Shown here piece after piece: positions 4,162-24,317 of a DNA stretch of 24,317 nt (position 1 is the stretch's first letter; every line of letters starts with the position of its first letter). Below the pieces are notes generated by a model. That model was not told the origin of the DNA. It made no database searches and saw only the letters and a list, made by a program, of their open reading frames with translations. The translations under genes were made by a program, and so were the position numbers. The stretch is from positions 1-24,317 of IMG/VR virus record IMGVR_UViG_3300028840_002170; one strand, written 5' to 3'. Source of the stretch: a virus.

Positions 4162-4857
4162 ATGACCGACAATGGAACGCCGGCCTGGATGGATCAGCTT
4201 CCAGACGACCTGAAGGGAAACGAGAACCTAACCCAATTCGAGACCATCGGTGATCTGGGGACGAAGTTTCTTGAGCTCGAGGGAAGAAGCGCCGACGCCT
4301 TATTTATCCCTGGCGAGGACGCCAGCGATGATGACCGGGCCACCTTCTTTCAAAGATTGGGCCGCCCGGCCGACCCGAAGGAATACGACCTGTCGTTACC
4401 CGAGGGCTTCCCCGAAAAGATGGGGCCGACTGAGGACGAGGACCGGGAGTACCGCGACATCCTGCACCGGCTGGGCATCACCGGCACGCAGGCCAAGGGC
4501 CTGTATGACTACGCCATGGGCAAGGCCAAAAGCAATCTCGAGACGATCGAGGCCCAGCGCGAGAAGTACCGCAGCGACAACGAGACGGTGCTCAAGCGGG
4601 AGTGGGGCGATCAATATGATGCGAATGTGACCAAGGCCAACAAGGTGATCGATAAGCTCGGCACGGACGGCTTTAAGGACTACCTGAAGGCCACCCAGAT
4701 GGGTAACTGGGCCGAGCTGGCGCGCTTTCTGGTCAAGGTGCATGACGTTGTCGGAGATGACGAATTCGTGGATGCAGAGATTACTGGTCCCGATGGAGGC
4801 GATTCGCGCCCGCGCGGGCCGGACGGACGACCCCGGTTCTCATACGACACGAAATGA
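4162..4857 (+). CDS. Capsid assembly scaffolding protein
   Basis: The 231-aa acidic, helix-rich protein precedes the major capsid gene, the usual place for scaffold. The pattern is typical: PAWMDQLPDDLKGNENLTQF near the start, then an IPGEDAS.DD...FFQRLGRPADPKEYDL segment (about residues 49-78). A long charged helical region follows, including a KRE-WGDQYDANVTKANK motif, and the protein ends in a disordered Gly/Pro/Asp tail. Such proteins fill the procapsid and leave or are cleaved during maturation. The start has a good AAGGAG site overlapping the previous stop. No protease domain is visible. Confidence 0.88.
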   Translation: MTDNGTPAWMDQLPDDLKGNENLTQFETIGDLGTKFLELEGRSADALFIPGEDASDDDRATFFQRLGRPADPKEYDLSLPEGFPEKMGPTEDEDREYRDILHRLGITGTQAKGLYDYAMGKAKSNLETIEAQREKYRSDNETVLKREWGDQYDANVTKANKVIDKLGTDGFKDYLKATQMGNWAELARFLVKVHDVVGDDEFVDAEITGPDGGDSRPRGPDGRPRFSYDTK

Positions 4858-4867
4858 TTTTTTACTT

Positions 4868-4898
4868 CCGGGGTGTAGGTATAACGCCTTGACCCCGG
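4868..4898 (+). promoter_or_regulatory. Hairpin with GTAGGTATAACG loop upstream of the capsid gene
   Basis: CCGGGGT (4868-4874) and ACCCCGG (4892-4898) form a perfect 7-bp stem around a 17-nt loop that begins GTAGGTATAACG (4875-4886). The same 12-mer occurs in a hairpin at 18031-18042, also between genes. TATAAC could serve as a sigma70-like -10 box, but no good -35 is visible. The T-run at 4857-4863 lies before the stem, so it is not a forward terminator. It may be a promoter, an mRNA-processing or stability element, or chance. Confidence 0.4.
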
Positions 4899-4914
4899 CG
4901 AGGAGAACCTGACG

Positions 4915-5880
4915 ATGGCAGAAAAAGACGTACGAAGCCAGTTGACGCTGATCGAGCTTGCCAAGCGGGCGGACAACAACGACCTGATGACGATCGCGGA
5001 GGTCTTGACCGAGGTCAATCAGTTCTACGACGATGCCCTCTGGCAGCCCTCGAACCAGCTGCTCTCGCATATCATCACGCGGCGCAACTCGCTGCCGTCC
5101 GGAGAGCACCGCAAGTTCAACGCGGGCGTCTCGCCGGCCGCGTCGAGCACGACCCAGGTGGTCGAGCCGATCGCGATGCTCGAGAGCTACAGCGAACCGG
5201 ATAAGGCCCTGGCCGATATGAGCCCGGACAAGGACCAGTTCCTCATGAACGAGGACACGGCCCACATCGAGGGCATGAGCCAGACCATGATGGACACCTT
5301 GATGTATGGCAACCGGGGCACGGCCCCGGAGGAGATCGACGGCCTGGCGCAGCGCCTCAGCACGATCGCGCAGAACAACGTCGTCTCGTGCGGCGGCTCG
5401 GGCTCGGATCTGACCTCGGTCTTCCTGGTGCAGTGGGGGATCAATAAGGTCCACATGATCTATCCGCGCAACTCGCCCACCATGGGCGTCGAGCGGATCT
5501 TTCTGGGCGAGGACACCGCGACGGACTCGAACTCGAAAAAATACCAGATCTACCGCACGCACCTGAAGGTGTACTACGGCCTGGCCGTGCATGATGAGCG
5601 GTGCATCCGGCGGTTGTGCAATATCGAGACGGCGGGGTCGAGCAACCTGTTCGACGATGACCTCCTGATCGAGCAGCTCAACCTGATGCCCTACGGCCGC
5701 AGCGGCCTGGTGATCTATTGCAACGCCACGGTCAAGAGCCAGATGGACAAGATCGCCAAGGACAAATCGAACGTGTATTACAAGCCGGATGAGATCTTCG
5801 GCCGGCCGGTGACGACCTTCCAGGGCGTGCCGGTCCGCCAGGTCGACGCGATCCTCAACACGGAATCGGCGATTACCTGA
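4915..5880 (+). CDS. Major capsid protein, gp7 (epsilon15/BPP-1) type
   Basis: The 321-aa protein builds the icosahedral shell with an HK97-type fold. Recognisable pieces in order are: an N-terminal LTLIELAKR followed by the IAEVLTEVNQFYDDALW helix, RRNSLPSGEHRKFNAGVS and MLESYSEPDKALADMS. Next come FLMNEDTAHIEGMSQTMMDTLMYGN with GTAPEEIDGLAQR, then SGSDLTSVFLVQWG.NKVHMIYPRNS and the C-terminal VTTFQGVPVRQVDAIL. This order is characteristic of the gp7-like major capsid family of epsilon15 and BPP-1. Length is normal for that group. ATG 4915 has AGGAG about 9 nt upstream. The cement protein gene follows. Confidence 0.92.
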   Translation: MAEKDVRSQLTLIELAKRADNNDLMTIAEVLTEVNQFYDDALWQPSNQLLSHIITRRNSLPSGEHRKFNAGVSPAASSTTQVVEPIAMLESYSEPDKALADMSPDKDQFLMNEDTAHIEGMSQTMMDTLMYGNRGTAPEEIDGLAQRLSTIAQNNVVSCGGSGSDLTSVFLVQWGINKVHMIYPRNSPTMGVERIFLGEDTATDSNSKKYQIYRTHLKVYYGLAVHDERCIRRLCNIETAGSSNLFDDDLLIEQLNLMPYGRSGLVIYCNATVKSQMDKIAKDKSNVYYKPDEIFGRPVTTFQGVPVRQVDAILNTESAIT

Positions 5881-5881
5881 T

Positions 5882-5894
5882 AGGCCCTGGGCCT
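5882..5894 (+). other. Short palindrome after the capsid gene
   Basis: AGGCCCTGGGCCT is a perfect palindrome around a central T, able to form a 5-bp stem with a 3-nt loop directly after the capsid stop. A T-run follows only about 18 nt later, overlapping the next ribosome binding site, so an intrinsic terminator is weakly supported at best. It could slow 3'-5' mRNA decay of the abundant capsid message. Confidence 0.25.
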
Positions 5895-5929
5895 GTAACC
5901 ATCAACCCGAGTTTTTGGAGGAAAACACC

Positions 5930-6406
5930 ATGATGGATTCCATTCTTGAATTCAGCGATGCCCAGAGCATCGCCACCACGCCGGCGACCGGAGGGAGTGA
6001 TCGCATCTTCAACTCCACGAACTACATCGACATCGGCGGTTACATCCAGCAGCCCGGCCGCGGCCGGCCGATCTGGATCAACGTGGTCGTGTCGACCGGG
6101 TTCGGCGGCAATCCGGCCTCGACGTTCCTGGTCTACCTGCAGACCGGCAAGACGGCCTCGCGCTGGGCCTCCGGCATCATCATCGCCAGCGGCAACGCCT
6201 CGCAGTTCGCGACCGCCGGGGAGACGATCTGCCGGATCAGCCTGCCGGCCGCCATGGGCGACGCAATCGACCAGATCCGCTACATCGGCCTGGTCTACCG
6301 GGCGCAGGTCGGCATGAAGGCCGGGGCGGTCAACGCCTGGCTCGACATCGACGGCGCCACCGGGGCCCACGATACGAAACGGTACGGCTCGATCTCCGGC
6401 GAGTAA
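5930..6406 (+). CDS. Bbp16-type capsid cement (decoration) protein
   Basis: The 158-aa protein is a predicted all-beta capsid-stabilising protein. The opening MMDSILEFSDAQSIATTPATGG, the NYIDIGG segment, GRPIWINVVVSTGF and the end VNAWLDIDGATGAHDT match the pattern of the Bbp16 cement family of BPP-1-like phages. In that family a MLDS.LEF start and a terminal AFLTLDP-type strand are recurrent. ATG 5930 is chosen because GGAGG lies 8 nt upstream; ATG 5933 is the alternative. An in-frame TTG at 5915 overlaps that binding site and is rejected. Such proteins bind between capsomers after expansion. Position directly after the capsid gene agrees. Confidence 0.85.
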   Translation: MMDSILEFSDAQSIATTPATGGSDRIFNSTNYIDIGGYIQQPGRGRPIWINVVVSTGFGGNPASTFLVYLQTGKTASRWASGIIIASGNASQFATAGETICRISLPAAMGDAIDQIRYIGLVYRAQVGMKAGAVNAWLDIDGATGAHDTKRYGSISGE

Positions 6407-6509: not shown

Positions 6510-6863
6510 ATGGCAAGCTACGAATGTATCCGCACCTGCTACCACGACGGCCGGCTATTTCGGCAGGGCGCGGTCTACGAACTCAAGGGCGAGGTTCCGC
6601 CCCATTTCAAGCGATTCTCGGACGCCGCCCCGGCGGCGCTCCCAAGGCAGGAGGCCGAGCAGGCCCTGCCGGCCTTTGCCCAGCCTGATACGTCCTGGGC
6701 CGATGCGGCCAATGCGGCTAACAGCAGCGACGAGTCACGAGTCAATAGTGACGAGACCGAAAAAGAAGAGGAAGAAGAAGTTGAGGTCGAAGTGCTGGTG
6801 GACGAGGATGACCTCGAGCCCACCAAGGTCAAGCGCGGCAAAAAACGGGGCAAGAAGACGTGA
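6510..6863 (+). CDS. Small head/tail accessory protein with acidic-basic tail
   Basis: Of 117 residues, the first 35 form a compact folded segment (SYECIRTCYHDGRLFRQGAVYEL...VPPHFKRF). This resembles the N-terminal domain of many small proteins next to phage capsid and decoration genes. The rest looks disordered: an Ala/Asp/Ser linker, a run of about 16 mostly acidic residues (EEEEEVEVEV...DEDD), and a basic end KRGKKRGKKT. AAAGGA lies 6 nt before ATG 6510. The stop overlaps the GTG start of the next gene (GTGA). Function is unknown. The charge pattern suggests contact with DNA or an oppositely charged virion protein, which is inference. Confidence 0.6.
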   Translation: MASYECIRTCYHDGRLFRQGAVYELKGEVPPHFKRFSDAAPAALPRQEAEQALPAFAQPDTSWADAANAANSSDESRVNSDETEKEEEEEVEVEVLVDEDDLEPTKVKRGKKRGKKT

Positions 6864-8461
6864 CATGGGAGTGGATCATCCTGACAGCCGGAATATTGGC
6901 GGCCGTGTTCGCGCGGATTCCGCTCCACCCCGAGGGATACGACAAGCTCAAGGAGTGGGCCTTTACGGCCGTGATGGCCGTGGGCGCGCTCATGGGGGCG
7001 GCGACCGGGAGCCTGCCGGCGCCGGGCGGGCCGGGGGCCTGGCTCCTTCTCTGTTTTGTGCTGCTGGCTTCGATTTCGGTCTTGTGGTCGGATTTTTTTT
7101 ACAATGCCCGAGTCGAGATCCCGCGCCTCTTTGCGATCCTCTATTTCCTGTTCCTGGCTTCCACCCTGCCGCGTGATCCAGTCCTGTGGTCGCTCTGGGT
7201 CCCGGCGCCCTTCGTGGCGCTCTACGGGCTGAGCCAGCAGCTGCTCCGCAAGGACCTCCTCATCAAAGAACATAACGCCTTCCTGCGAAAAAAATACCGC
7301 TTCTTCGGGTGGTCGTTCGGGTCGAACCAGGCCGGGACGTATCTGGCGCCAATGCCGTTTATCGGGATGTATCTGGTCACGCTGATGCCCTGGCCGTGGT
7401 CGGCGGCGGTCTATTTCGGGGTGGCGCTGTGCGCCTTCGGGCTGTGGCATTCGCACTGCAAGGGCGCCATCGTGGCCAATCTGATCGGGACCATGGTCCT
7501 GGCGCCGTGGGCGATCCCGCTCATTCTGATCGCGGCAGCGGCCTTCGTCTGGAAAAGGCGGGCGCTTTTCGACGGGGCCGGGCACCGCGTCATGCTGCTG
7601 CGGATCTGCCTCGAAATGTTTAAGCACAAACCGCTCCTGGGCTGGGGCCCGCGCTCGTTTCGAACGCACCATCACGTGGCCGTGGCCGCCATCAATAAAC
7701 GCGATCCTTCCATATTGGGCAAGCCGGGCGTGGGCGGAAAATACGCGTTCTGGGTCGGCCGGCGGGCGCACAACGACTTTGCCGAGACCTTCGCGGATTA
7801 CGGCCTCGTGGGCGGGCTGCTGTTCCTGGGTTTTATCGCACTTGTTATATCACGTGCTATATCATCCGAGCCGATGCTGCTGGCCGGGGTGGTGGCCGCC
7901 GTATCCTCGGCGGCGTTTTTTTACCCCTGGCGGCAGATCGACGTGGGCCTGCCGCTCTTCGTGCTTCTGGGGATCAACCTGCAGGCCGCGCCGATTGCAC
8001 CTCCTCCGGCCGTGGCGCTGATCGTCGCGGTCGCGGCCGGGGCGATCCTGTGGGAGTTCTGCGCCAAGCCGTACTGGTCGATGCGGGCGGCCCTGGCTGG
8101 CAGGCTGCCAGAGGCGCTCACGTGGCAGCCGTTCGCCACGGAGTACCTCTTTCTGATCGCGCAGCTGGCGGTCAAGGTCAAGGACGCGGCTTTGGCGTTC
8201 AACTGCGCCGAGAAGGCCCTTTACCACTACGACGGCGACCGGCCCTACTGGGAAATCCTGAATATCTTCGGCGCGGCCGCCGCCATGGCCGGCGCGATCA
8301 CGACGGCCGAGCACGCCTTCAGGCGCTGCCTGACGATGCACCCGAACTACAAGCCCGCCCGGCGCGCCCTGGAGCAGCTCCAGTTGTATAAATTGGGCAA
8401 GCTGCGTCCGGCCCGCAAGAAGAAAAAACCGAACCGCAAGAAGGAGGCCGTAAACGCATGA
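6860..8461 (+). CDS. O-antigen ligase/polymerase-like (Wzy_C) membrane protein with C-terminal TPR-like region
   Basis: The 533-aa polytopic protein looks like a member of the O-antigen ligase/polymerase superfamily. About ten to twelve hydrophobic segments span residues 4-400. Family-type motifs are WSD..YNARVEIPRL (76-90), GSNQAGTYLAP (154-164), and WHSHCKGAIVA (196-206, where S.SRga is usual). The large periplasmic-type loop (232-310) contains HKPLLGWGPRSF and RRAHNDFAETFADYGLVGGLLFL (301-323), matching the Wzy_C pattern of a loop His before EYG.xG. Residues 415-510 form helical repeats resembling TPR units, then a Lys/Arg-rich end. Members polymerise or transfer lipid-linked glycans in the inner membrane. 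GTG 6860 overlaps the previous stop and its own stop overlaps the next start. Serotype conversion or exclusion of rival phages is a reasonable role; a protein O-glycosyltransferase is the alternative. Confidence 0.8.
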   Translation: MTWEWIILTAGILAAVFARIPLHPEGYDKLKEWAFTAVMAVGALMGAATGSLPAPGGPGAWLLLCFVLLASISVLWSDFFYNARVEIPRLFAILYFLFLASTLPRDPVLWSLWVPAPFVALYGLSQQLLRKDLLIKEHNAFLRKKYRFFGWSFGSNQAGTYLAPMPFIGMYLVTLMPWPWSAAVYFGVALCAFGLWHSHCKGAIVANLIGTMVLAPWAIPLILIAAAAFVWKRRALFDGAGHRVMLLRICLEMFKHKPLLGWGPRSFRTHHHVAVAAINKRDPSILGKPGVGGKYAFWVGRRAHNDFAETFADYGLVGGLLFLGFIALVISRAISSEPMLLAGVVAAVSSAAFFYPWRQIDVGLPLFVLLGINLQAAPIAPPPAVALIVAVAAGAILWEFCAKPYWSMRAALAGRLPEALTWQPFATEYLFLIAQLAVKVKDAALAFNCAEKALYHYDGDRPYWEILNIFGAAAAMAGAITTAEHAFRRCLTMHPNYKPARRALEQLQLYKLGKLRPARKKKKPNRKKEAVNA

Positions 8462-8766
8462 ACCTGGCAAACGTCAAGTGTATCGGGGACGAGGTCGTCA
8501 CTGTGGGGGCCGCCGCCACCGGCTTTTCGAGCGCACCGAGCGACGCGGATTACGCCGAGGTCTTCGCCATGTCGACGACCTCGTGCCGCTGCTGCTGGGG
8601 CGGGACCACGCCGACGGCCAACAACGGCGTCCTGCTGGACGAGCAGGCGGCCGGGAACGTCTTGAAGATCAAGCTCTACGGCGGTCAGGCGATCGCCGAC
8701 TTCCTGGCCTTCGGCAACACGAGCAAGCTCTACGTGGTCTATTACCGGAGCCGTAATTACGCCTGA
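8458..8766 (+). CDS. Small beta-rich virion accessory protein, paralogue 1
   Basis: The 102-aa product is clearly homologous to the next gene. Shared blocks are a GDE.(V/L) start, the SDADYAEV / SGADYAEI motif, an Arg-containing strand followed by a DP/TP turn, NGVLLDE, a hydrophobic L(Y/F)GG strand, and a final (V/A)YY strand. The ADYAE...GVLL...YY pattern recurs in small phage beta-sandwich proteins encoded near head-tail genes. It carries four Cys, three in the SCRCCW segment. ATG 8458 overlaps the stop of the Wzy-like gene, with AAGGAGG about 11 nt upstream. Precise role is unknown; decoration or a tail accessory is likely. Confidence 0.65.
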   Translation: MNLANVKCIGDEVVTVGAAATGFSSAPSDADYAEVFAMSTTSCRCCWGGTTPTANNGVLLDEQAAGNVLKIKLYGGQAIADFLAFGNTSKLYVVYYRSRNYA

Positions 8767-8778
8767 TGGAGGTGCGGC

Positions 8779-9105
8779 ATGGAAAATCATCTTGATCCGG
8801 CCGAAATGAAAGTCCTGGGCGACGAGATCTTGGTGGTGAGCAACACGGCCGTGGGCCTGGCGAGCGTGCCGAGCGGGGCGGATTACGCCGAGATCTACCC
8901 GAGCGATGCCGACCCGTTCCGCTGCCGCTGGGACGCGACCGACCCGGACGCCAGCAACGGCGTCCTGCTGGACGAGGCCACGACCGGCCACATCGAAATG
9001 GTGGCGCTTTTCGGCGGGACGGCGATCGCCAAGTTCAAAGCCATCCGGTCCGGGCTGAACGATTCGCAGCTTTACGCCGTCTATTACCAGACCATGAGCT
9101 ACTGA
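8779..9105 (+). CDS. Small beta-rich virion accessory protein, paralogue 2
   Basis: The 108-aa product is a tandem duplicate of the preceding gene with a longer N-terminus (MENHLDPAE). Alignment by eye covers almost the full length, including GADYAEI, the FRCRWDAT strand, SNGVLLDE, LFGGTAIAKF and YAVYYQ. A 23-nt DNA stretch coding for SNGVLLDE matches the first copy nearly perfectly, while flanks differ strongly, so the duplication is not recent. TGGAGG lies 8 nt before ATG 8779. It lacks most of the Cys of its partner. The pair could form hetero-oligomers; that is inference. Confidence 0.65.
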   Translation: MENHLDPAEMKVLGDEILVVSNTAVGLASVPSGADYAEIYPSDADPFRCRWDATDPDASNGVLLDEATTGHIEMVALFGGTAIAKFKAIRSGLNDSQLYAVYYQTMSY

Positions 9106-9106
9106 G

Positions 9107-9523
9107 ATGAATCCGCTGCGGGCTGTGTTGAGATCGGTGTTTCCGGCCCGGATGCGTTCCGGGCTGATCGGCGGGTTCGCCAAGCTGAATTGTTGGTACG
9201 CCAAGGGGATCGCGGTCCTCTCGTTCGTCCGCAACATGGAGATCACGGACATCGGGATCCTGATGGGCGTGGCCAAGTACCTGTTCGGCGACGCCCTGAG
9301 CAGCTGGCAGATCGTCGGGATCGGCGCCGGGTACTGGACCCTGAACACGCTCGTGAACCTGTGCGTGGGCTGGTTTTGGGAGCACCACAGCGGCTGGGAG
9401 ATCGAGGCGCGGGTGGTGAGCAAGCGGATCACGCCGCAGCGCACCATCCTGGTGGACCCGGAAACGGGCCAGGCTTATGGCCTGAAGGAGATGAAGGAGG
9501 CTTGCCATGGCCGTAACGACTGA
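9107..9523 (+). CDS. Small membrane protein of unknown function within tail genes
   Basis: The 138-aa product has a basic N-terminus (MNPLRAVLRSVFPARMRS) and two hydrophobic stretches. One is about residues 45-64 (ITDIGILMGVAKYLFG, weak) and one about 65-90 (WQIVGIGAGYWTLNTLVNLCVGWFW, strong). A soluble tail follows, ending in TPQRTILVDPETGQAYGLKEM. ATG 9107 overlaps the TGAGATGA junction with no strong binding site, so coupling is likely. It overlaps the next gene by 17 nt. I recognise no family. A holin-like or inner-membrane DNA-entry accessory is possible, but the long soluble tail is unusual for a holin. Confidence 0.55.
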   Translation: MNPLRAVLRSVFPARMRSGLIGGFAKLNCWYAKGIAVLSFVRNMEITDIGILMGVAKYLFGDALSSWQIVGIGAGYWTLNTLVNLCVGWFWEHHSGWEIEARVVSKRITPQRTILVDPETGQAYGLKEMKEACHGRND

Positions 9524-10292
9524 CGTGGGCGTGGTCAACATCGCCATGATCCGGCTCGGGCACGACCCGATCGATTTCCTTAGTGGGATAAGCCCGGAAG
9601 AGGTGGCCGCCAATACGATTTATGAGCCGATTCGCGACAAGATGCTTGAGGCCCTGCCGTGGGACTTCCAGGTGCAGGAATACACCCGCGAGATCGATGA
9701 CGAGCAGAAGACCGTCACGGCGATTACCCAGGCGGATCCGGCCGTGGTCACGGTGGCGAGTCACGGGTATAAGAACGGGATGCACGTCACGTTCGAAGAC
9801 CTTGCGGGCATGACCGAGCTGGACGAGGATCAGTATCGGATCGCGAGCGTGGCGACCAACACCTTTGAGCTGGAAGGGGTGGACTCGAGCGCATACACCG
9901 CCTTCAGCTCGGGCAGCGTACGGGTCCGGCCGCCACACCGCTATGAGTATGCCTATGCCCTGCCGAGCGATTACCTGCGGATGTGGCGCATGTACCCGAC
10001 GGATGAAAACTATGAGGTCCGGCGCAAGTTCCTGTATTGCAACTGGGACGAGATTTACATTGAATATCTGGCCAAGATCACGACCGTGAGCGAATGGGAC
10101 CCGACCTTCGTCATGGCGTTGGCGGCGGCCGTAGCCGTGCCGCTTTCGAAGAAGATCGGCGACACCACGATCGAGCTCGTCCAGGAGCTCAAGGACGAGG
10201 CCAAGAAGGCCCTACTGACGGCGCAGGAGACGTGCGCGCTCGAGAGCGAGCCCTACGACCTGGAATATTTTACGGCCTGGCAGGAGAGATAA
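9507..10292 (+). CDS. Tail tubular protein A (T7 gp11-like adaptor) with inserted FCCH-like beta domain
   Basis: The 261-aa product forms the adaptor ring under the portal. The N-terminal helices have the family pattern: NIAMIRLGHDPI, then AANTIYEPIRDKMLEALPWDF (residues 34-54). The C-terminal half has the YEYAYALPSDYLRMWRMYP segment, then YIEYLAKI and a helical end. Residues 69-139 are an extra beta domain with the signature TAITQADPAVVTVASHG...GM.V.F..LAGMTELD...Y.IA.VATNTFEL.GVDSSAYTAFSSG. This repeat-like domain is common in phage tail proteins and is often annotated as FCCH of ubiquitin-activating enzyme. AAGGAGG precedes ATG 9507. It sits directly before tail tubular protein B. Confidence 0.9.
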   Translation: MAVTTDVGVVNIAMIRLGHDPIDFLSGISPEEVAANTIYEPIRDKMLEALPWDFQVQEYTREIDDEQKTVTAITQADPAVVTVASHGYKNGMHVTFEDLAGMTELDEDQYRIASVATNTFELEGVDSSAYTAFSSGSVRVRPPHRYEYAYALPSDYLRMWRMYPTDENYEVRRKFLYCNWDEIYIEYLAKITTVSEWDPTFVMALAAAVAVPLSKKIGDTTIELVQELKDEAKKALLTAQETCALESEPYDLEYFTAWQER

Positions 10293-10298
10293 GTGATT

Positions 10299-10318
10299 AG
10301 GTGGAAGGCTGTTGGGTG
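10299..10318 (-). repeat. Degenerate inverted relative of the intergenic repeat
   Basis: These 20 nt match the reverse complement of 766-785 at 16 of 20 positions by hand alignment, so the element at 711-821 appears here in the opposite orientation. It fills most of the gap between the two tail tubular genes and provides GGAAGG (10303-10308), a plausible binding site 7 nt before GTG 10316. The match is short; homology is likely but not certain. Confidence 0.45.
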
Positions 10319-13135
10319 AAAAAAAAGATGGAGAAAAGAGAGTTTGCGCGGATAAGAATCTGGTTTTGGGTCGGGCTGTTTGTTTTCGCCATGCTGGCGG
10401 TGACGCTCAAGGCGGCTCAGGCCGCGCCGATCTGGCTGTATCTGACGGACTTTACCGGCGGCGAATACTCCGAGCTGATGGGCGCGAGGGCGGACTTCAG
10501 GCACTACTCCAAGGCGTGCAGCACGCTCGAGAATTTTCTCGTCTGGCCGCACGGGCCCGTGACACGCCGGCCGGGCTTCCGGTATGTGGCCAAAACCAAG
10601 TATCCCTCCAAGCAATCCCGCCTGATCCCTTTTACCTATTCGACGGAAAACAGCTATGTGATCGAGCTGGGCGATCAGTATGCGCGGTTTTATCGCGAGG
10701 GCGGCGCCGTGCATGCGGGATATTTAATCGAGGGCGAGAATGAGGTCTTGCCGCTCAATACCAAGGCCGAGATGGAGGTCGAGCCGATCCTCTGGAAACC
10801 TTTCGATGTGGGCGCAAATAGTGGGTTGACGGCATTTTGTGGTGGGTGCGGGGAAGGCGGCACAGGCGCCCTCAGTCTGTACAATCCGGCCCATTCGGGA
10901 AATCTGTTTATGTGGACGACGGTCAGCGGCGTCACGCCGGGCTGGCTGTATAAATTTCAATTTTTGCAACGCAAGGCCATTGTGGGGACGTATGGCGTCG
11001 TGTATTGGAATATCTTCAATATGGACCACCCCGCCGACAACGGTGATGACTGGGGCTTTGGCGGTGGAAACATCACGGGCTCGCAGCAAGCGGCAAACGA
11101 TAGCGGCGGCTGGGCCGAGGAAGATGCCTTGGTGGAATCAACCTTTTTCCTGATGCCGGAATCGTGCAGCGGCGTCACGATCGTGATCGGATTCTATCGT
11201 AATAATTCGGCCCAGAATCTCAAGGTCGATAACGTCTATTTATACGGCTGGACGGAAGCGCCGGAGATCCCCACGCCCTGGCTCGAGGAGGATCTGGACG
11301 AGTTGAGCTGGTGCCAGGATGCGGAAAACCTCTATATCGCGCATCCGGATTATCAGGTCCGTAAGCTGACCCTTCAGGCAGCTGAATCCTGGCAGCTTAG
11401 TACGTTCAGCCCAACAAACGACCCGACCGGCGGGGCAACTGGATATCCGCGCGTGATCGGCTTCTATGAGTCGCGGCTCGTGATGGGGGCCAGCGAGGCT
11501 TATCCGCAGCGGTTATTTTTATCAAGGACTAACGATCCCGATGATTTCACCTTCGGCACGTCCGATGATGACGCCATAGATATTACGATCAATCTCGATC
11601 GGGTCAATGATATCCAATGGATATCACCCGGGAATGTGCTGGCGGTCGGCACGAGCGGGGCGGAGTGTCGGATCGGATGGCCTGATACCGTGGAACCATT
11701 GACGCCGACCAATATCTTTGCCCGCCGGGAGACGAACTATGGATCCGCGGCGGTCCAGCCGGTGCGGGCCGGGCATAGCATTCTCTTCGCGCAGCGATCG
11801 GGACGCAAGCTGCGGGAGCTGACCTATAACTGGGAGGTGGGCGGATATGTGGCGCCCGATATATCGCTGCTTGATCGGAATGCGACCGAGGGCGGCATTA
11901 AGGAGATCGTCTATCAACAGGAACCTCTATCGGTTGTTTGGTGCGCGATGCACGACGGGACCCTGGCCGGTATGACGTATCTGCGCGATCAGGAGGTCGT
12001 CGCCTGGCATCGGCACCCCACCGAAGGGCATGTCGAAAGCCTCTGCGTTATTCCGGGCGAGGAGCAGGACGATCTCTACGCCATCGTGCGGCGTTACGTC
12101 GAGGACTGGGATAACTATACGGAGCTGACGACCGAATCGGATTTTGACGGCGATGGGAATGACAGCCTGGATGCGTGGGACTCCTTGAACAGTGGAGCGG
12201 TGAGCTTGACGGCCGCTGAAGGCATATCGGGTACGACGTGCGTTGAGATCGAGGCGACGGACGAGATGGACCCCGGGATCCACCAGGATATCTCGGGCGT
12301 GACGCCCGGGACGACGCTCAAGCTCGAGATCTACCAGAAGGAGAGCTATTCAGGGCAGGATGTCGAATGGGGGTATCAAGTCGAGACGGTCGGCGGTACC
12401 TCGGAGATTGTCACGAGCGGGACGACCAGGAGCACATCCAGCTGGGAGATGATGTACGATTATTTCGAGGTGCCCGAGGATTGCACCGCGATCAGGGTCA
12501 AGGGCTACGGTCTGGACATAGCAAGTGGTGCCACGATTTGGTTCGACAACTTCAGCGTCATCCAGTGGAATTATGACCGGCGCTACGTCGAGCGGCTCGA
12601 TCCGCTTTATGACGGATCGGGATTGGAGTATGCCAGCTTTCTGGATTCGGCGATCCCCTATGATGGGCCATTGGCGCATACGTTCACAAACTGCAACCAT
12701 CTTGGCGGTAGTACGATCTATGTCATGGCTGACGGCGAAGTCGTCACCGGGATCACGGTCTACGCCAATGAGAGCGGAAACAGCGAATTCTATCTGCCGG
12801 ATGGGGGCCGCAAGGTCCTGGCGGGATTACCCTATACGTCACTGCTTGAAACCATGCGGCTCGAGGTGCCCGGACCGATCGCGGGCGCGAGCCAGGGCCG
12901 GATCAAGCGGATCAGCGAGGTGATCGCCCGCGTCTATCAGACGAGCGATTTCGAGATCGGACCGGACGAGGACAATACCCGCACCATGGACGTGGATGGG
13001 GACGAGTACAGCGGGGACCTGCGTTACACCTATCCCTCGGGCTACGAGCGGGACGCCCGGGTGGTCGTCTACCAGGACGAGCCGTATCCGCTGACCCTGC
13101 TGGGGCTGAACCTGCGGGTGGAGCTCGGGGACTAA
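10316..13135 (+). CDS. Tail tubular protein B (nozzle, T7 gp12-like) with signal peptide and two inserted jelly-roll modules
   Basis: The 939-aa product is the nozzle subunit of a short tail. The core signature is LTDFTGGEYSELMGARADFRHY, then CSTLENFLVWPHGPVTRRPGFRYVA and RLIPFTYSTENSYVIELGDQYARFY. Later come ENLYIAHPDYQVRKL, GYPRVIGFYESRLVMGAS, the RRYVERLD block and a C-terminal DEPYPLTLLGLNL. Ahead of the core sits a classic signal sequence: basic start (KKKMEKREFARIRI), hydrophobic core (WFWVGLFVFAMLAVTL) and an AQA-AP cleavage-like site. Extra domains lie at 10796-11254 and 12101-12571. Both contain SGVTPG and end in a strand with V/F-DN, as in carbohydrate-binding jelly-rolls. GTG 10316 has GGAAGG 7 nt upstream. 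ATG 10328, ATG 10391 and GTG 10400 are alternatives, and the last two would remove or break the signal. Base use is more AT-rich than neighbours. Confidence 0.88.
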   Translation: MKKKMEKREFARIRIWFWVGLFVFAMLAVTLKAAQAAPIWLYLTDFTGGEYSELMGARADFRHYSKACSTLENFLVWPHGPVTRRPGFRYVAKTKYPSKQSRLIPFTYSTENSYVIELGDQYARFYREGGAVHAGYLIEGENEVLPLNTKAEMEVEPILWKPFDVGANSGLTAFCGGCGEGGTGALSLYNPAHSGNLFMWTTVSGVTPGWLYKFQFLQRKAIVGTYGVVYWNIFNMDHPADNGDDWGFGGGNITGSQQAANDSGGWAEEDALVESTFFLMPESCSGVTIVIGFYRNNSAQNLKVDNVYLYGWTEAPEIPTPWLEEDLDELSWCQDAENLYIAHPDYQVRKLTLQAAESWQLSTFSPTNDPTGGATGYPRVIGFYESRLVMGASEAYPQRLFLSRTNDPDDFTFGTSDDDAIDITINLDRVNDIQWISPGNVLAVGTSGAECRIGWPDTVEPLTPTNIFARRETNYGSAAVQPVRAGHSILFAQRSGRKLRELTYNWEVGGYVAPDISLLDRNATEGGIKEIVYQQEPLSVVWCAMHDGTLAGMTYLRDQEVVAWHRHPTEGHVESLCVIPGEEQDDLYAIVRRYVEDWDNYTELTTESDFDGDGNDSLDAWDSLNSGAVSLTAAEGISGTTCVEIEATDEMDPGIHQDISGVTPGTTLKLEIYQKESYSGQDVEWGYQVETVGGTSEIVTSGTTRSTSSWEMMYDYFEVPEDCTAIRVKGYGLDIASGATIWFDNFSVIQWNYDRRYVERLDPLYDGSGLEYASFLDSAIPYDGPLAHTFTNCNHLGGSTIYVMADGEVVTGITVYANESGNSEFYLPDGGRKVLAGLPYTSLLETMRLEVPGPIAGASQGRIKRISEVIARVYQTSDFEIGPDEDNTRTMDVDGDEYSGDLRYTYPSGYERDARVVVYQDEPYPLTLLGLNLRVELGD

Positions 13136-19268: not shown

Positions 19269-19317
19269 CAGCCTTCAGCCTTCAACCTAAAACCCTAACA
19301 AGCGAACGGAGTGAGCG
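19269..19317 (+). repeat. 49-nt intergenic repeat, copy 2, carrying a ribosome binding site
   Basis: This is 45 of 49 identical to 773-821. It contains two more CCTTCAG-type units just upstream (from 19265) but lacks the left palindrome arm of copy 1. Its CGGAG at 19307-19311 lies 5 nt before GTG 19317, and the repeat's last base is the first base of that codon. The first in-frame GTG (19311) overlaps the binding site. The 62-nt gap 19255-19316 is essentially made of this element. Confidence 0.8.
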
Positions 19318-22004
19318 TGGCGACCGATCCCTGCATTGAGATCGTCAAGAAGGCGGCCGGCGTCTCGGACGACGAGGCGCTCGAGCTGATCGAGGAAGTC
19401 CGCCGGCGCAAGCAGCTCCTCGAGGCGGAAGGGAAGGGCCACCGCGCCGAGGAGGACCTGAAAAGATTCGCCGAGCGCAAGGCCCAGCAGACCCGGATCA
19501 ACGCGGCCCTGGCGCGCAAGCACGCGGCCCTGAACATCCTCAAGCGGCAGCGGGTGCTGGATCCGCACTGGGACACCTGGATGGAGCGGGCCGACCCGGC
19601 GGAGATGTCCAAGGGAGCATTCGGCCAGCACGTCCGGGAAGGCTACCAGGCGTTGCTCTACGGCTCGGTCAAGGGTCTGGCCGGCGCGCGGGCCTCGGTC
19701 GCGGCCCGGCGCGGGGCTATCATGGCGGACTGGCTCGGCGCGCTGACGCGCGAGATCTCGCAGTACAAGCCGGAGCTCATCAAGGCGCTGCGGGATGACC
19801 GCCGGCTGATGGATAACACAATCCGGGAGATGTACGAGCTACGGCCGGAGGGCCGGCCCGGAATCACGGGTGATCCGGACGCCAAGTTCATGGCGGAGCT
19901 GCTGACCAAATATTCTGAAATGGCCCGCGTGCGGGCGAACAATGCCGGCGCCTTTATCCGGCGGCTGCCGGGCTGGACGCCGCAAAACCACGACGCCAAG
20001 AAGCTGATAAAGGCCGGCCGCGAGACCTGGGTGCGGACCGTACTCGAGCACCTGGATGCGGAGCGGTCCTTTTCGGAGGCCGACCCGGAGGAGATCCCGG
20101 AGATCCTGGGCGAGATCTACCAGAACATCGTCACGGGCCGGGACCGGGCTTTGCGGCCGGCCGAGCGGGGCGAGTTCACCGGGCCGCGCAACCTGGCCCG
20201 CAGCCTCGAAAAGCACCGGGTGCTCCACTTCCGGTCGGCGGACGACTTCCTGATCTACCACGAGCGCTTCGGACGCGGGAACGTCTTCACGGGCACGCTT
20301 GAGCACCTCGAGCGCCTGGCGCGCAAGGTGTCGTTGATGGAGGTTTTGGGACCGAATCCGGAGAATATGCTGGCTGCGCACCTCAAGGCGAGCGCGCGCA
20401 AGATCCGCGAGGATCCGAACCTGCCTGAGGAGTACAAGCAGGCCGCGCTCCAGCACCTTAACATCAACCTGGGCCGCCGCGAGGGTACGATCGGCCGGGC
20501 CTTTGCGGAGGTCATGGGCGAGACCCTGATCGCCGAGAACCCGACCCTGGCGCGCTGGATGGCCGGAACGCGCGCCGTACAAAGCCTGGCCAAGCTGGGC
20601 GGCGTGACGCTCTCGAGCATCAACGACACCCTGACCTACGCCATGAACCTGCGGCACCGCGGCCGGGGCCTCTTCGAAAGCTACCTCGACGCCCTGGGCG
20701 TCGTCTTCCGGGGGCGGACGCCGAAGGAAAAGAAGGAAATCAGCTACGTGCTGGGCGCGATGTACGAGGGCATCCTGGGCGATATCGCCAACCGCTGGAA
20801 CGCCCAGGACCGCATACCCGGCAAGATGGCCGAGGCCATGGACACGTTCTTCCGTTGGAATGGCCTGACCTGGTGGACGAACCGGCTGCGGGCCGGCGCG
20901 GTCCACGGGGCGTCGGCCGAGCTGGCACTCAACGCCCGCCGCGCCTGGAGCGGGCTGAACGAGAACTACCGAGCCGTGCTCGAGACGCACGGCATCGGCG
21001 CCCGGGAGTGGAGGCTGATCCGCAAGATGCCCAAGGAGATCGGCGATTACGACTACGTGCTGCCGGAGTTCATCGATACCATCTCGGATGCGGACATCGA
21101 CCGATTGCTGATCCCGGAGCGGATCGCGGAGATCCGCAAGGCGTTGAAGGTCGACGAGGTCAAGACGGCCGCCACCAGGGCGGCGCGCGAGCAGGCCTTC
21201 GAGCAGCGTCTGGCGCGCGTGCGGCAGGAGGCGCGGCAAGACTTCCGGACCAAGATCCAGAGTTTCTTCGTGGACGAGATGGACAGCTCCGTGATCGATG
21301 CGGACGACCGCACCCGGGCCCTACTTCTGCAGGGCACCCGGCCGGGGACACTCGTGGGCGAGGCGGCGCGCTTCGTGGCGCAGTTCAAGTCCTTCCCGAT
21401 CGCGTACACCCAGCGGATCCTGCGCGGGCAGCGGTATCGGCGAGCGGCCGGCGGGCCGGACCCGGTGGGGATCGCCAATATCATCGCCGGCAGCCTGATC
21501 TTCGGCTACGCCGCCATGACCGCCAAGGATCTTGTCAAGGGCCGCACGCCGCGCGACCCGCGCCACTGGAACACCTGGCTGGCCGCGGCGCTCCAGTCGG
21601 GCGGGGCCGGCATCTATGGGGATTTCTTCCTGGGCAAGGCCTCGCGCTTCGGCAACGACGCGCTCGAGACCATGGCGGGTCCCGTGCCGGAGACGGCCGG
21701 CAGCATCGTCGGGATGGTCCAAAAGGTGATCAACGGGGACGCGGACGCCGGCGACGCCTTCCGCTTCGTGCAGAACAACACGCCCGTCATTAATCTCTGG
21801 TATACACGCTACGCGCTGGACACCCTGATCCTGTACAATCTGCAGGAGATGTTGGGCCCGGGCACGCTCAGGCGCCGGGAACGTCGCATGAAGGAGGACT
21901 ACGGCCAGGAGTACATCGTGCCGCCGTCGAGCTATGTGCCGCGCGGCGGCACCTGGAACCTGACCGAGCCGGGACGAAAGTTTGTAGAGGAGGTGATGCA
22001 GTAA
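19317..22004 (+). CDS. Very large internal virion / DNA-ejection protein
   Basis: The 895-aa product is mostly helical and Arg/Glu/Ala-rich, as expected for the largest ejection protein. The C-terminal region is distinctive: a small hydrophobic segment (about 716-740, VGIANIIAGSLIFGYAAMTAKDL), HWNTWLAAALQSGGAGIYGDFF, and NLWYTRYALDTLILYNLQEMLGPG.LRRRERRMKEDYGQEY (from about 825). It ends in a PPSSYVPRGG tail. That NLWYTR..LD.L.L..LQE...PG..RR.ERR..KDYGQ pattern recurs at the end of very large podovirus virion proteins. No peptidoglycan hydrolase motif is obvious in the N-terminus. GTG 19317 is preferred over GTG 19311 because GGAG at 19308-19311 gives 5 nt spacing. Its stop overlaps the next start. 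Confidence 0.83.
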   Translation: MATDPCIEIVKKAAGVSDDEALELIEEVRRRKQLLEAEGKGHRAEEDLKRFAERKAQQTRINAALARKHAALNILKRQRVLDPHWDTWMERADPAEMSKGAFGQHVREGYQALLYGSVKGLAGARASVAARRGAIMADWLGALTREISQYKPELIKALRDDRRLMDNTIREMYELRPEGRPGITGDPDAKFMAELLTKYSEMARVRANNAGAFIRRLPGWTPQNHDAKKLIKAGRETWVRTVLEHLDAERSFSEADPEEIPEILGEIYQNIVTGRDRALRPAERGEFTGPRNLARSLEKHRVLHFRSADDFLIYHERFGRGNVFTGTLEHLERLARKVSLMEVLGPNPENMLAAHLKASARKIREDPNLPEEYKQAALQHLNINLGRREGTIGRAFAEVMGETLIAENPTLARWMAGTRAVQSLAKLGGVTLSSINDTLTYAMNLRHRGRGLFESYLDALGVVFRGRTPKEKKEISYVLGAMYEGILGDIANRWNAQDRIPGKMAEAMDTFFRWNGLTWWTNRLRAGAVHGASAELALNARRAWSGLNENYRAVLETHGIGAREWRLIRKMPKEIGDYDYVLPEFIDTISDADIDRLLIPERIAEIRKALKVDEVKTAATRAAREQAFEQRLARVRQEARQDFRTKIQSFFVDEMDSSVIDADDRTRALLLQGTRPGTLVGEAARFVAQFKSFPIAYTQRILRGQRYRRAAGGPDPVGIANIIAGSLIFGYAAMTAKDLVKGRTPRDPRHWNTWLAAALQSGGAGIYGDFFLGKASRFGNDALETMAGPVPETAGSIVGMVQKVINGDADAGDAFRFVQNNTPVINLWYTRYALDTLILYNLQEMLGPGTLRRRERRMKEDYGQEYIVPPSSYVPRGGTWNLTEPGRKFVEEVMQ

Positions 22005-22419: not shown

Positions 22420-23190
22420 ATGCCTCAGTTCAATTTCGTAATCTCCGTAGCAGACAAGGAAACCTCGATGCTCTCGACGGATATTCGCAAGCGTGAGGGG
22501 GACATCATCACGGTGAAAGAACCAGGCAAAAATTACGGCTGGAAGGTGATTGATGAATACTTGATTGTCCCCGTGAACGTAGTGGTGTTGATTACCAAGC
22601 TCAAGGCGGAAGGTGTTCTGAAGCGCTCTCTCTATGAGAATGGCAAAGTGGATGGCATTGATTTTCGGGATATCAATCCAGATAGGGACGGCGTGGACAA
22701 AGAATCTGGTATGGTCTGGGATATCAAGGCGGAGAAAAAGATTGCCGAGCCGAAGAGACTAGCCAAAAACCGTTATCAGATTCCCTTGACAAGCCTTGGT
22801 GATATTGATCTTGAGAAAACCAGAGACATCAAGACGGTCTATCAGCCGTTCTTGAAAGAGTCTTTTGTTGTCAACATGCCTTGTTTCACCCTGCCCGATA
22901 GAGATATCGAATTGCGCTATGTGGGTGGTGTTTATGAAATGCGACAGATTAGAAAGTGGAAAAGAAACATCTACGAGGAGACAATTAACGGCAAGCTGAT
23001 CCGCTTTATTCGCCCGAAAGAACCAGCAATCCCTATCGAAATAAAAGACGATCCTTGGCGGCCTATCTATTGCGATACCTCGACTATTGGAAAAGAGGAT
23101 GAAAAGGTGTTCGAGTGGAGCACCACTGAAAACCTCGTGAAAGACAAACACGATAATAGTTGGTTAGAGGTGAGCTCTCTTGGCCAGTAG
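22420..23190 (+). CDS. Hypothetical protein of the AT-richer fibre cassette (256 aa)
   Basis: ATG 22420 follows GGGGGTGAG. The N-terminus (PQFNFVISVADKETS...IRKREGDIITVKEPGKNYGWKVIDEYLIVPVNV) resembles small phage proteins with a REGDI(I/V)xV...W.WG...FL(I)VPV core that occur near tail-fibre genes. The remainder is rich in Lys, Asp and Ile with no motif I recognise, including LRYVGGVYEMRQIRKWKRNIYEE and IPIEIKDDPWRPIYCD. GC falls to about 42% in sampled lines, against more than 75% in a sampled line of the preceding large gene. Codons therefore differ strongly and horizontal acquisition is likely. It overlaps the next gene by 11 nt. Function unknown. Confidence 0.65.
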   Translation: MPQFNFVISVADKETSMLSTDIRKREGDIITVKEPGKNYGWKVIDEYLIVPVNVVVLITKLKAEGVLKRSLYENGKVDGIDFRDINPDRDGVDKESGMVWDIKAEKKIAEPKRLAKNRYQIPLTSLGDIDLEKTRDIKTVYQPFLKESFVVNMPCFTLPDRDIELRYVGGVYEMRQIRKWKRNIYEETINGKLIRFIRPKEPAIPIEIKDDPWRPIYCDTSTIGKEDEKVFEWSTTENLVKDKHDNSWLEVSSLGQ

Positions 23191-24317
23191 CAGACGAGCA
23201 GGAACGAACGAGAATATTGCCTTCTATGGCTCGGGTCAGGCTTATGATGAAGGCGACATGACGGCATGGGAGGGGGCTACTGACAACGATCTCGTAACCT
23301 CAACGACCAGTGAAGTCCTGGAGGTCGAAAGCGAGGGCGGCGGCGGGGCGCTTTGGGATGAATCCCCTGACACGTTTGCAGGTGCCACGACCAGCTCGAG
23401 CTATATGCGGAGCATTCGGCCACGCTCGGGGCATTTTCACAGTAGTATCCCCAAAGACGATGGTAGCTGTGCTGGTTTTGATATTGCTGGCGGGACTGAT
23501 TACAAGTCTTGGAGGGTTGATGAGAATAACTTCAAAGTCCAAGATCTCCCGATCAGGTCTAATACAGATTATGCGGGTGAAGCTATAGTCATTGATTTTC
23601 GTGGGGCCAGCTGTGAGGCTGTCGGCGTCATGGTTTTTGACAGCGCCAATGTCTCCGATGATATGGTTGCGTTTCGTGCCCGCTCGACAGGGAACTCAAA
23701 TTTTTTCGTCAACTGCCTAGCCCATAATCTCGATGATTTTGCGTTTAAGGTTTATGACGGCACGGGGTATTTTTATAGTAATACCGAATATGGGTGTGGA
23801 GGGTCCTTGCGGGTTGATGCTGGCGAGACTGCTGTAACTGAAAATTGCGTTTTAGATGATCCATTAAGTATTGTCGGTACTCACACACAACCAAATAATA
23901 GTGATACAACTGATACCCCGACTTATGTGGATTCCGCTAATGACGATTTCCATCTGGATTCCGCCGATGTCACGGCCAAGGACAACGGCACCGACCTGAG
24001 CGCCGATGGTAGTTTCGCCTTTGATGACGACATTGATGGTGAGACGCGCAGCGGCTCGTGGGATATCGGCTTTGATGAGTACGTCGCGGCCGGATCCCCG
24101 TCGGCCTCGGAGAGCCCGTCGGAGTCACCGAGCGAAAGCCCCTCGTTAAGTCCTTCAGCATCTGAGTCACCATCAGAAAGTCCGTCGGAGAGTCCAAGCC
24201 TTAGTCCTTCGGCTTCCGAATCCCCTTCTGAGTCACCGTCGGAGAGTCCAAGCCTTAGTCCTTCGGCTTCCGAATCTCCTTCTGAGTCACCGAGAGAGAG
24301 TCCAAGCCTTAGTCCTT
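23180..24317 (+). CDS. Beta-helix fibre or adhesin with Ser/Pro repeat stalk (partial at window end)
   Basis: The frame is open from after TGA 23171 to the window edge. TTG 23180 is the best start, with GAGGTGAG 5 nt upstream, inside the end of the previous gene. About 379 residues are visible. Residues 1-300 look like a right-handed beta-helix: short strands rich in Asn, Gly and Asp such as AIVIDFRGASCEAVGVMVFDSANVSDDMVAFRA and NSNFFVNCLAHNLDDFAFKVYDG. They end in a DFHLDSADVTAKDNGTDL...DDDIDGETRSGSWDIGFDEY cap. That cap is common in bacterial secreted beta-helix proteins (the choice-of-anchor-Q-like end). From residue 306 the protein is a Ser/Pro/Glu/Leu repeat stalk. It probably binds or cleaves host surface glycan; specificity is unknown. 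Confidence 0.75.
   Translation, partial: MASSRRAGTNENIAFYGSGQAYDEGDMTAWEGATDNDLVTSTTSEVLEVESEGGGGALWDESPDTFAGATTSSSYMRSIRPRSGHFHSSIPKDDGSCAGFDIAGGTDYKSWRVDENNFKVQDLPIRSNTDYAGEAIVIDFRGASCEAVGVMVFDSANVSDDMVAFRARSTGNSNFFVNCLAHNLDDFAFKVYDGTGYFYSNTEYGCGGSLRVDAGETAVTENCVLDDPLSIVGTHTQPNNSDTTDTPTYVDSANDDFHLDSADVTAKDNGTDLSADGSFAFDDDIDGETRSGSWDIGFDEYVAAGSPSASESPSESPSESPSLSPSASESPSESPSESPSLSPSASESPSESPSESPSLSPSASESPSESPRESPSLSP
24128..24317 (+). repeat. 54-bp tandem repeats coding an 18-aa Ser/Pro/Glu unit
   Basis: Units start at 24128, 24182, 24236 and 24290 (the last cut by the window). Each encodes PSESPSLSPSASESPSES or close to it. Units 2 and 3 differ at a single base (TCC versus TCT). Unit 1 encodes the same residues with many different codons. 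Unit 4 has an Arg change (PRES). The repeats sit inside the fibre gene and keep the frame, so copy-number change would alter only stalk length. Confidence 0.9.

Follow-up and report, generated by a model that had tools for sequence, protein, structure and literature searches.

Why should a tailed phage keep a gene for a membrane glycan transferase among the genes that build its virion? The question is raised by a 24-kb virus record, analysed here at its full length of 24,317 nucleotides (the window), in which such a gene lies between capsid and tail genes. To our knowledge, phages are known to change the O-antigen almost exclusively through lysogenic conversion.

An enzyme gene among virion genes

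The features of the locus, in window coordinates, are as follows.

4915..5880, plus strand: major capsid protein of the GP7 (epsilon15) type (PF20911, E 8e-90)
5915..6406, plus strand: Bbp16-like cement protein (PF21190, E 3e-4; phrog_427, E 5e-10)
6510..6863, plus strand: p117, a small acidic virion-operon protein (profile search; kept at the same site in relatives)
6860..8461, plus strand: membrane glycan transferase of the Wzy_C/WaaL/PglL superfamily with a TPR-like tail (Pfam, profile, fold)
6860..6863, plus strand: GTGA overlap of the p117 stop with the enzyme gene start (sequence)
7307..7331, plus strand: conserved FG-x-N motif (GWSFGSNQ, N156), typical of the family (alignments)
7586..7820, plus strand: putative catalytic periplasmic loop with R243, PLLGWG, R302, H304-N-D-x2-E309 and HX10G (H304-G315) (alignments)
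8090..8410, plus strand: C-terminal TPR-like helical region, about residues 416-512 (profile and model)
8458..8461, plus strand: ATGA overlap of the enzyme gene stop with the start of the next gene (sequence)
8458..8766, plus strand: small protein, paralogue of gene 8779..9105 (DNA self-match about 80%)
8779..9105, plus strand: small protein, paralogue of gene 8458..8766 (DNA self-match about 80%)
9507..10292, plus strand: tail tubular (gp11-like) protein, the slot's right-hand border (phrog_394, E 8e-28)
10301..13135, plus strand: tail nozzle protein (phrog_376, E 9e-152)

Because its neighbours encode a GP7-type capsid, a Bbp16-like cement protein, and tail-tubular and nozzle proteins, the window represents an epsilon15/BPP-1-like podovirus; p117 also looks like epsilon15 gp9 when the two are compared by eye. 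The enzyme ORF (533 aa, start codon GTG) was found as an earlier, sequence-only reading had described it, encoding a polytopic protein between cement and tail genes and sharing 4 bp with each neighbour, and every motif quoted in that reading (SNQAGTYLA, HSHCKGA, HKPLLGWG, RAHNDFAE..DYGLVGG) is present in the protein. The length of the ORF is insufficient as evidence because a 398-aa ORF also exists on the antisense strand. A second IMG/VR record (G001; 44,045 bp) is 99.99% identical to the window over the 18,458 bp compared first, and both of its ends meet within the window at 20334-20342, so that combining the records gives a closed circular map. Given this identity and closure, the gene is no assembly accident, and the chimeric assembly that the sequence-only reading had named as its own possible undoing is ruled out by the second assembly, which carries the gene. 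The enzyme gene at 6860-8461 is real, and its codon composition resembles that of its neighbours, with a GC3 of 0.83 inside their range. No sigma-70-like promoter was found near it, between 4800 and 10400 of the window; the terminator-like matches in its region (10, versus 4.6 in shuffles) probably reflect T-rich membrane codons.

Several further features of the record deserve mention. The tandem pair of paralogous small proteins lies directly 3' of the enzyme gene, and the tail-tubular protein carries an inserted FCCH-like domain at residues 79-136. A 49-bp direct repeat (45/49 identical; 773-821 and 19269-19317) lies just 5' of two genes and, with its CCTTCAG repeats, is a possible regulatory element. 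The fibre-like gene that ends the window (23180-24317; 16593-17198 in L097) contains internal DNA repeats, and here the window and G001 differ at 5 of 1,939 bases, compared with 2 of 18,458 elsewhere.

Superfamily, putative active loop and tail

Pfam Wzy_C matches the enzyme at 31.3 bits (E 2e-7), slightly below the cut-off of 31.7, and rises above it in a six-frame search of the window (34.6 bits); two homologues score 45.9 bits (P0002) and 60 bits (P0003). Apart from DUF3145 and TPR matches below cut-off, Pfam gave Wzy_C only, with no PglL-specific domain, and a PHROGs search with the enzyme gave no match. A family profile of phage and bacterial homologues aligns across the membrane domain both with the WaaL structure 7TPG (E 7e-16) and with the oligosaccharyltransferase 9RMK (E 4e-18). 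For an AlphaFold model of the membrane core (18 sequences; pLDDT 80, pTM 0.80), the best PDB match is again WaaL 7TPG (E 8.8e-6, TM 0.55), and the SEDS protein FtsW comes next; a full-length model (8 sequences; pLDDT 73.5) gave Foldseek matches to TPR proteins only, or nothing significant. The sequence-only reading had proposed a glycan polymerase or ligase and had looked to a structure comparison to expose any mismatch with this fold, and both profile and fold support its choice of family. Membership of the Wzy_C/WaaL-Wzy-PglL superfamily (GT-C_B) is well supported by a Wzy_C match, a multi-pass fold matching a solved member, and a loop arginine together with the HX10G histidine, and the assignment stands at the superfamily level, at which polymerase, lipid-A ligase and protein oligosaccharyltransferase are not separable on these data.

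Across 16 phage rows, R243, R302, H304, N305, D306, E309 and G315 do not vary, and the residues of the putative catalytic loop are invariant or nearly so when bacterial rows are included. The family profile aligns H304, the histidine of HX10G, with the HND histidine of WaaL. The HX10G histidine is essential in D3 Wzy-beta (PMC4815439), and His338 of WaaL, in the residue numbering of that paper, is the proposed base (PMC10449877); we propose from the alignment that the WaaL counterpart of H304 is this same residue. The C-terminal TPR-like region noticed at the outset is weak in a single-sequence search (E 0.089) and clear when the family profile (A8) is compared with PDB TPR chains (E 2e-7), which bears out the original observation, and the full-length model has helices at 416-511. 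Membrane loop charges are ambiguous as to which side the tail faces.

The same comparisons bear on a PglL-like protein O-oligosaccharyltransferase, which would transfer lipid-linked glycan to host surface proteins, for example pilins, and so mask a protein receptor. The fold is common to ligases, polymerases and oligosaccharyltransferases, and the family profile slightly favours 9RMK over WaaL, but the Pfam result includes nothing specific to PglL and the enzyme's nearest bacterial counterparts are Wzy_C proteins that have a TPR tail and no annotation. We consider such an activity unlikely.

Recurrence and descent of the slot genes

We defined the slot as the interval after the capsid and cement genes and before the tail-tubular gene, and queried IMG/VR first with the capsid, then with the enzyme. 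Homologues occupy the slot in 13 other contigs (L051, L104, L115, L116, L117, L118, L121, L147, L148, L149, L151, L157 and L158), or 14 phages with the window, the enzyme searches having been seeded with slot members and so biased towards their kin. Both flanks are visible in 10 of the 14, window included, and the other four contigs stop inside or beside the gene; in several slot phages the enzyme gene overlaps the tail-tubular gene. Thus the synteny search that the sequence-only reading had recommended recovered the same placement, and what had seemed a singular insertion is instead a family recurring at one locus. In L051 a tail-fibre-like gene comes after the enzyme gene, and in L121 an APS-kinase/cytidylyltransferase-like gene (4356-5096) lies between the scaffold and capsid genes.

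Tailed phages unrelated to these carry further homologues in clusters of head or packaging genes. In L155 the gene lies between a lambda-type portal/protease block and the major capsid gene, an arrangement shared, as far as visible, by L152, L154 and L156. In L119 a Wzy-TPR gene between terminase and portal (4843-6100) is split over two reading frames, by either a real frameshift or a sequencing artefact. Among 50,697 records of annotated phages, searched with the window protein and five homologues, there was no match, and a scan of genome contigs with the single enzyme protein likewise gave none. The slot itself is mostly short, with a median gap of 980 bp among 79 loci having capsid and tail-tubular genes (a few of them overlapping copies). 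In the sister phages L015 (11579-17264) and L017 (10298-13737) it holds GT11, GT17 and GT2-like genes, and in L015 additionally methyltransferase and radical-SAM/B12 genes. The slot may be regarded as a genomic site at which surface-glycan genes are exchanged among environmental podoviruses.

In a tree of the conserved core, seven of the first eight slot proteins form one clade (98/90), and its sister group comprises L119 and TPR-tailed Deltaproteobacteria (Desulfobacterota-type) MAG proteins (98/92), in keeping with the suggested relation to bacterial TPR-tailed Wzy_C proteins. The eighth, L121, is placed apart with a bacterial protein (93/98); owing to it, a single clade of all first eight slot phages is rejected (p-AU 0.02), and from its position in the tree its enzyme looks like a separate capture. 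In a larger tree 14 phage proteins group together (92/90), 12 of them at 98/91. One clade of all phage Wzy proteins minus L121 is also rejected (p-AU 0.02), the broken L119 copy grouping with bacterial ones. On a portal tree of 77 phages, Wzy presence has to change about five times, so that gain, loss or transfer occurred repeatedly.

Within the L147-L158 group, the enzyme's dN/dS is about 0.09, similar to that of tail genes, with synonymous sites close to saturation for the more distant pairs. The enzyme is under strong purifying selection in relatives. Capture from a host, which the sequence-only reading had entertained, is not supported as a recent event, since GC3 within the neighbours' range and the deep phage clade speak against it; an old phage-resident family is indicated instead. 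It is a tentative proposal, to which we give slightly less than even weight, that TPR-tailed Wzy/WaaL-type enzymes constitute an ancient phage-resident family, hard-wired into the virion operons of several probably non-lysogenising tailed-phage lineages and dedicated to surface conversion during the lytic cycle, with at least one of these lineages having recruited a different bacterial Wzy into the same slot.

Strict placement among virion genes, the 4-bp overlaps and selection similar to that on tail genes might alternatively mean that the enzyme is part of the virion or acts on its proteins. Against this, the enzyme crosses the membrane several times and its active loop is of the periplasmic type, capsid assembly takes place in the cytoplasm, and relatives without Wzy make the same virion genes. 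On grounds of topology we judge a virion function highly improbable.

Proposed late surface remodelling and known systems

G001, G033 and four more slot-phage records, several of which are fragments, yielded no tyrosine integrase or resolvase (PF00589, PF00239); the E. coli-type control phage G061 does carry an integrase. On its opposite strand, G001 has a gene for a Cro/CI-like HTH protein (L097 10004-10588, plus), so a lysogenic, plasmid-like or other dormant state is possible. This protein, together with the Wzy_C conversion gene of epsilon15, a phage of related capsid type, would accord with an ordinary lysogenic-conversion gene in the style of epsilon15 or D3 Wzy-beta that lies in the virion operon by chance and benefits the lysogen. 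Yet epsilon15 and G061 have integrases and a Wzy gene that stands apart from the virion operon, either antisense or neighbouring the tailspike, the slot phages have no detected integrase or resolvase, and the Wzy of G061, the conversion type tested, is distant from the slot enzymes on a long branch. Furthermore, virion-operon genes are normally silent in lysogens, and we find chance placement of a conversion gene quite improbable.

Outside the slot, G001 carries two GT2 genes, a GT29-like gene and a PIG-L-like gene, all in the same direction and downstream of the window. The GT2, GT29-like and GT2 genes (L097 12728-14413, 14371-14958 and 15502-16431, minus) lie just past the window's last gene; the PIG-L-like deacetylase (L097 3036-3668, minus) matches at E 1e-5, slightly under cut-off. 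The GT29-like gene is sialyl-motif-like (E 5e-10 over 51 residues), and its protein has no match among annotated phages. G001 also encodes a pentapeptide-repeat protein (L097 4103-4816, minus; E 2e-39). The phage might with these genes build a lipid-linked glycan of its own, which the enzyme would polymerise or attach, and the glycosyltransferases in the slot of L015 and L017 fit such a scheme. However, GT2 was not found in three other slot phages (G033, G088 and G091; records of 46, 35 and 45 kb), implying that host precursors are used in these phages, and no flippase was identified; phage-made sugars strike us as a rather improbable explanation.

We favour, with a little better than even confidence, a late virion-operon-linked enzyme that would alter the host surface glycan, shielding progeny or blocking superinfection; surface remodelling as such is probable. 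Under this proposal of late remodelling, a Wzy_C/WaaL-type (GT-C_B) glycan transferase, resident in the phage and placed in the inner membrane, would be co-transcribed with virion genes and so made late, a timing suggested by operon position and overlaps. Its substrate would be lipid-linked (undecaprenyl-diphosphate) glycan, supplied by the host and here perhaps also by the phage's own glycosyltransferases, and it would polymerise or ligate this glycan on the periplasmic side in a non-native manner. Newly made surface polysaccharide would then no longer be a receptor for the phage, such that progeny would not become stuck on the dying cell or debris and superinfection would be blocked, with substrate, direction of glycan change and benefit all as we infer them. 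The effect may be small, because a late change can affect only glycan assembled before lysis. If the proposal is true, surface remodelling belongs to the lytic programme, and a gene family and motif are now defined for testing.

For lytic phages, masking of receptors has been proposed as protection from debris or superinfection, with Gnarl and Llp proposed to act late, sparing progeny or excluding kin; Gnarls are non-enzymes of 40-90 aa, and Llp targets a protein receptor (PMC12373910). WaaL of Cupriavidus metallidurans (7TPG/7TPJ) resembles the window enzyme in fold, profile and the aligned HND histidine, but the window enzyme has an additional C-terminal helix and TPR tail. PglL-type O-oligosaccharyltransferases resemble it in profile over the membrane domain, although it has no detected PglL-specific domain. 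Desulfobacterota-type MAGs (L105, L106) encode TPR-tailed Wzy_C proteins that belong to its sister group, yet these are chromosomal, about 25% identical, and have no phage genes next to them.

The window phage has the same capsid type as epsilon15, and its enzyme, like those of epsilon15 and D3 (Wzy-beta), is a phage-encoded Wzy_C membrane protein with an HX10G periplasmic motif. The Wzy_C gene of epsilon15 is encoded on the minus strand, has the tailspike and an inhibitor as neighbours, and is far from the capsid-tail slot; the contrast drawn by the sequence-only reading, which had placed conversion genes outside the late structural block, therefore holds, and the epsilon15 gene is antisense as well. 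Beside the window enzyme gene, no small membrane protein or Iap-like polymerase inhibitor was identified, such peptides being poorly recognisable. The conversion genes of epsilon15 and D3 are located away from the virion operon, accompanied by a polymerase inhibitor, in integrase-bearing temperate phages, whereas the window enzyme is TPR-tailed and lies in the virion operon of slot phages without a detected integrase. A conversion module would lie outside the virion operon under its own promoter and in an integrase-bearing temperate phage, and the window enzyme shows neither trait. It differs from serotype-conversion modules by the lack of a detected integrase, its placement, its TPR tail and its repeated recruitment.
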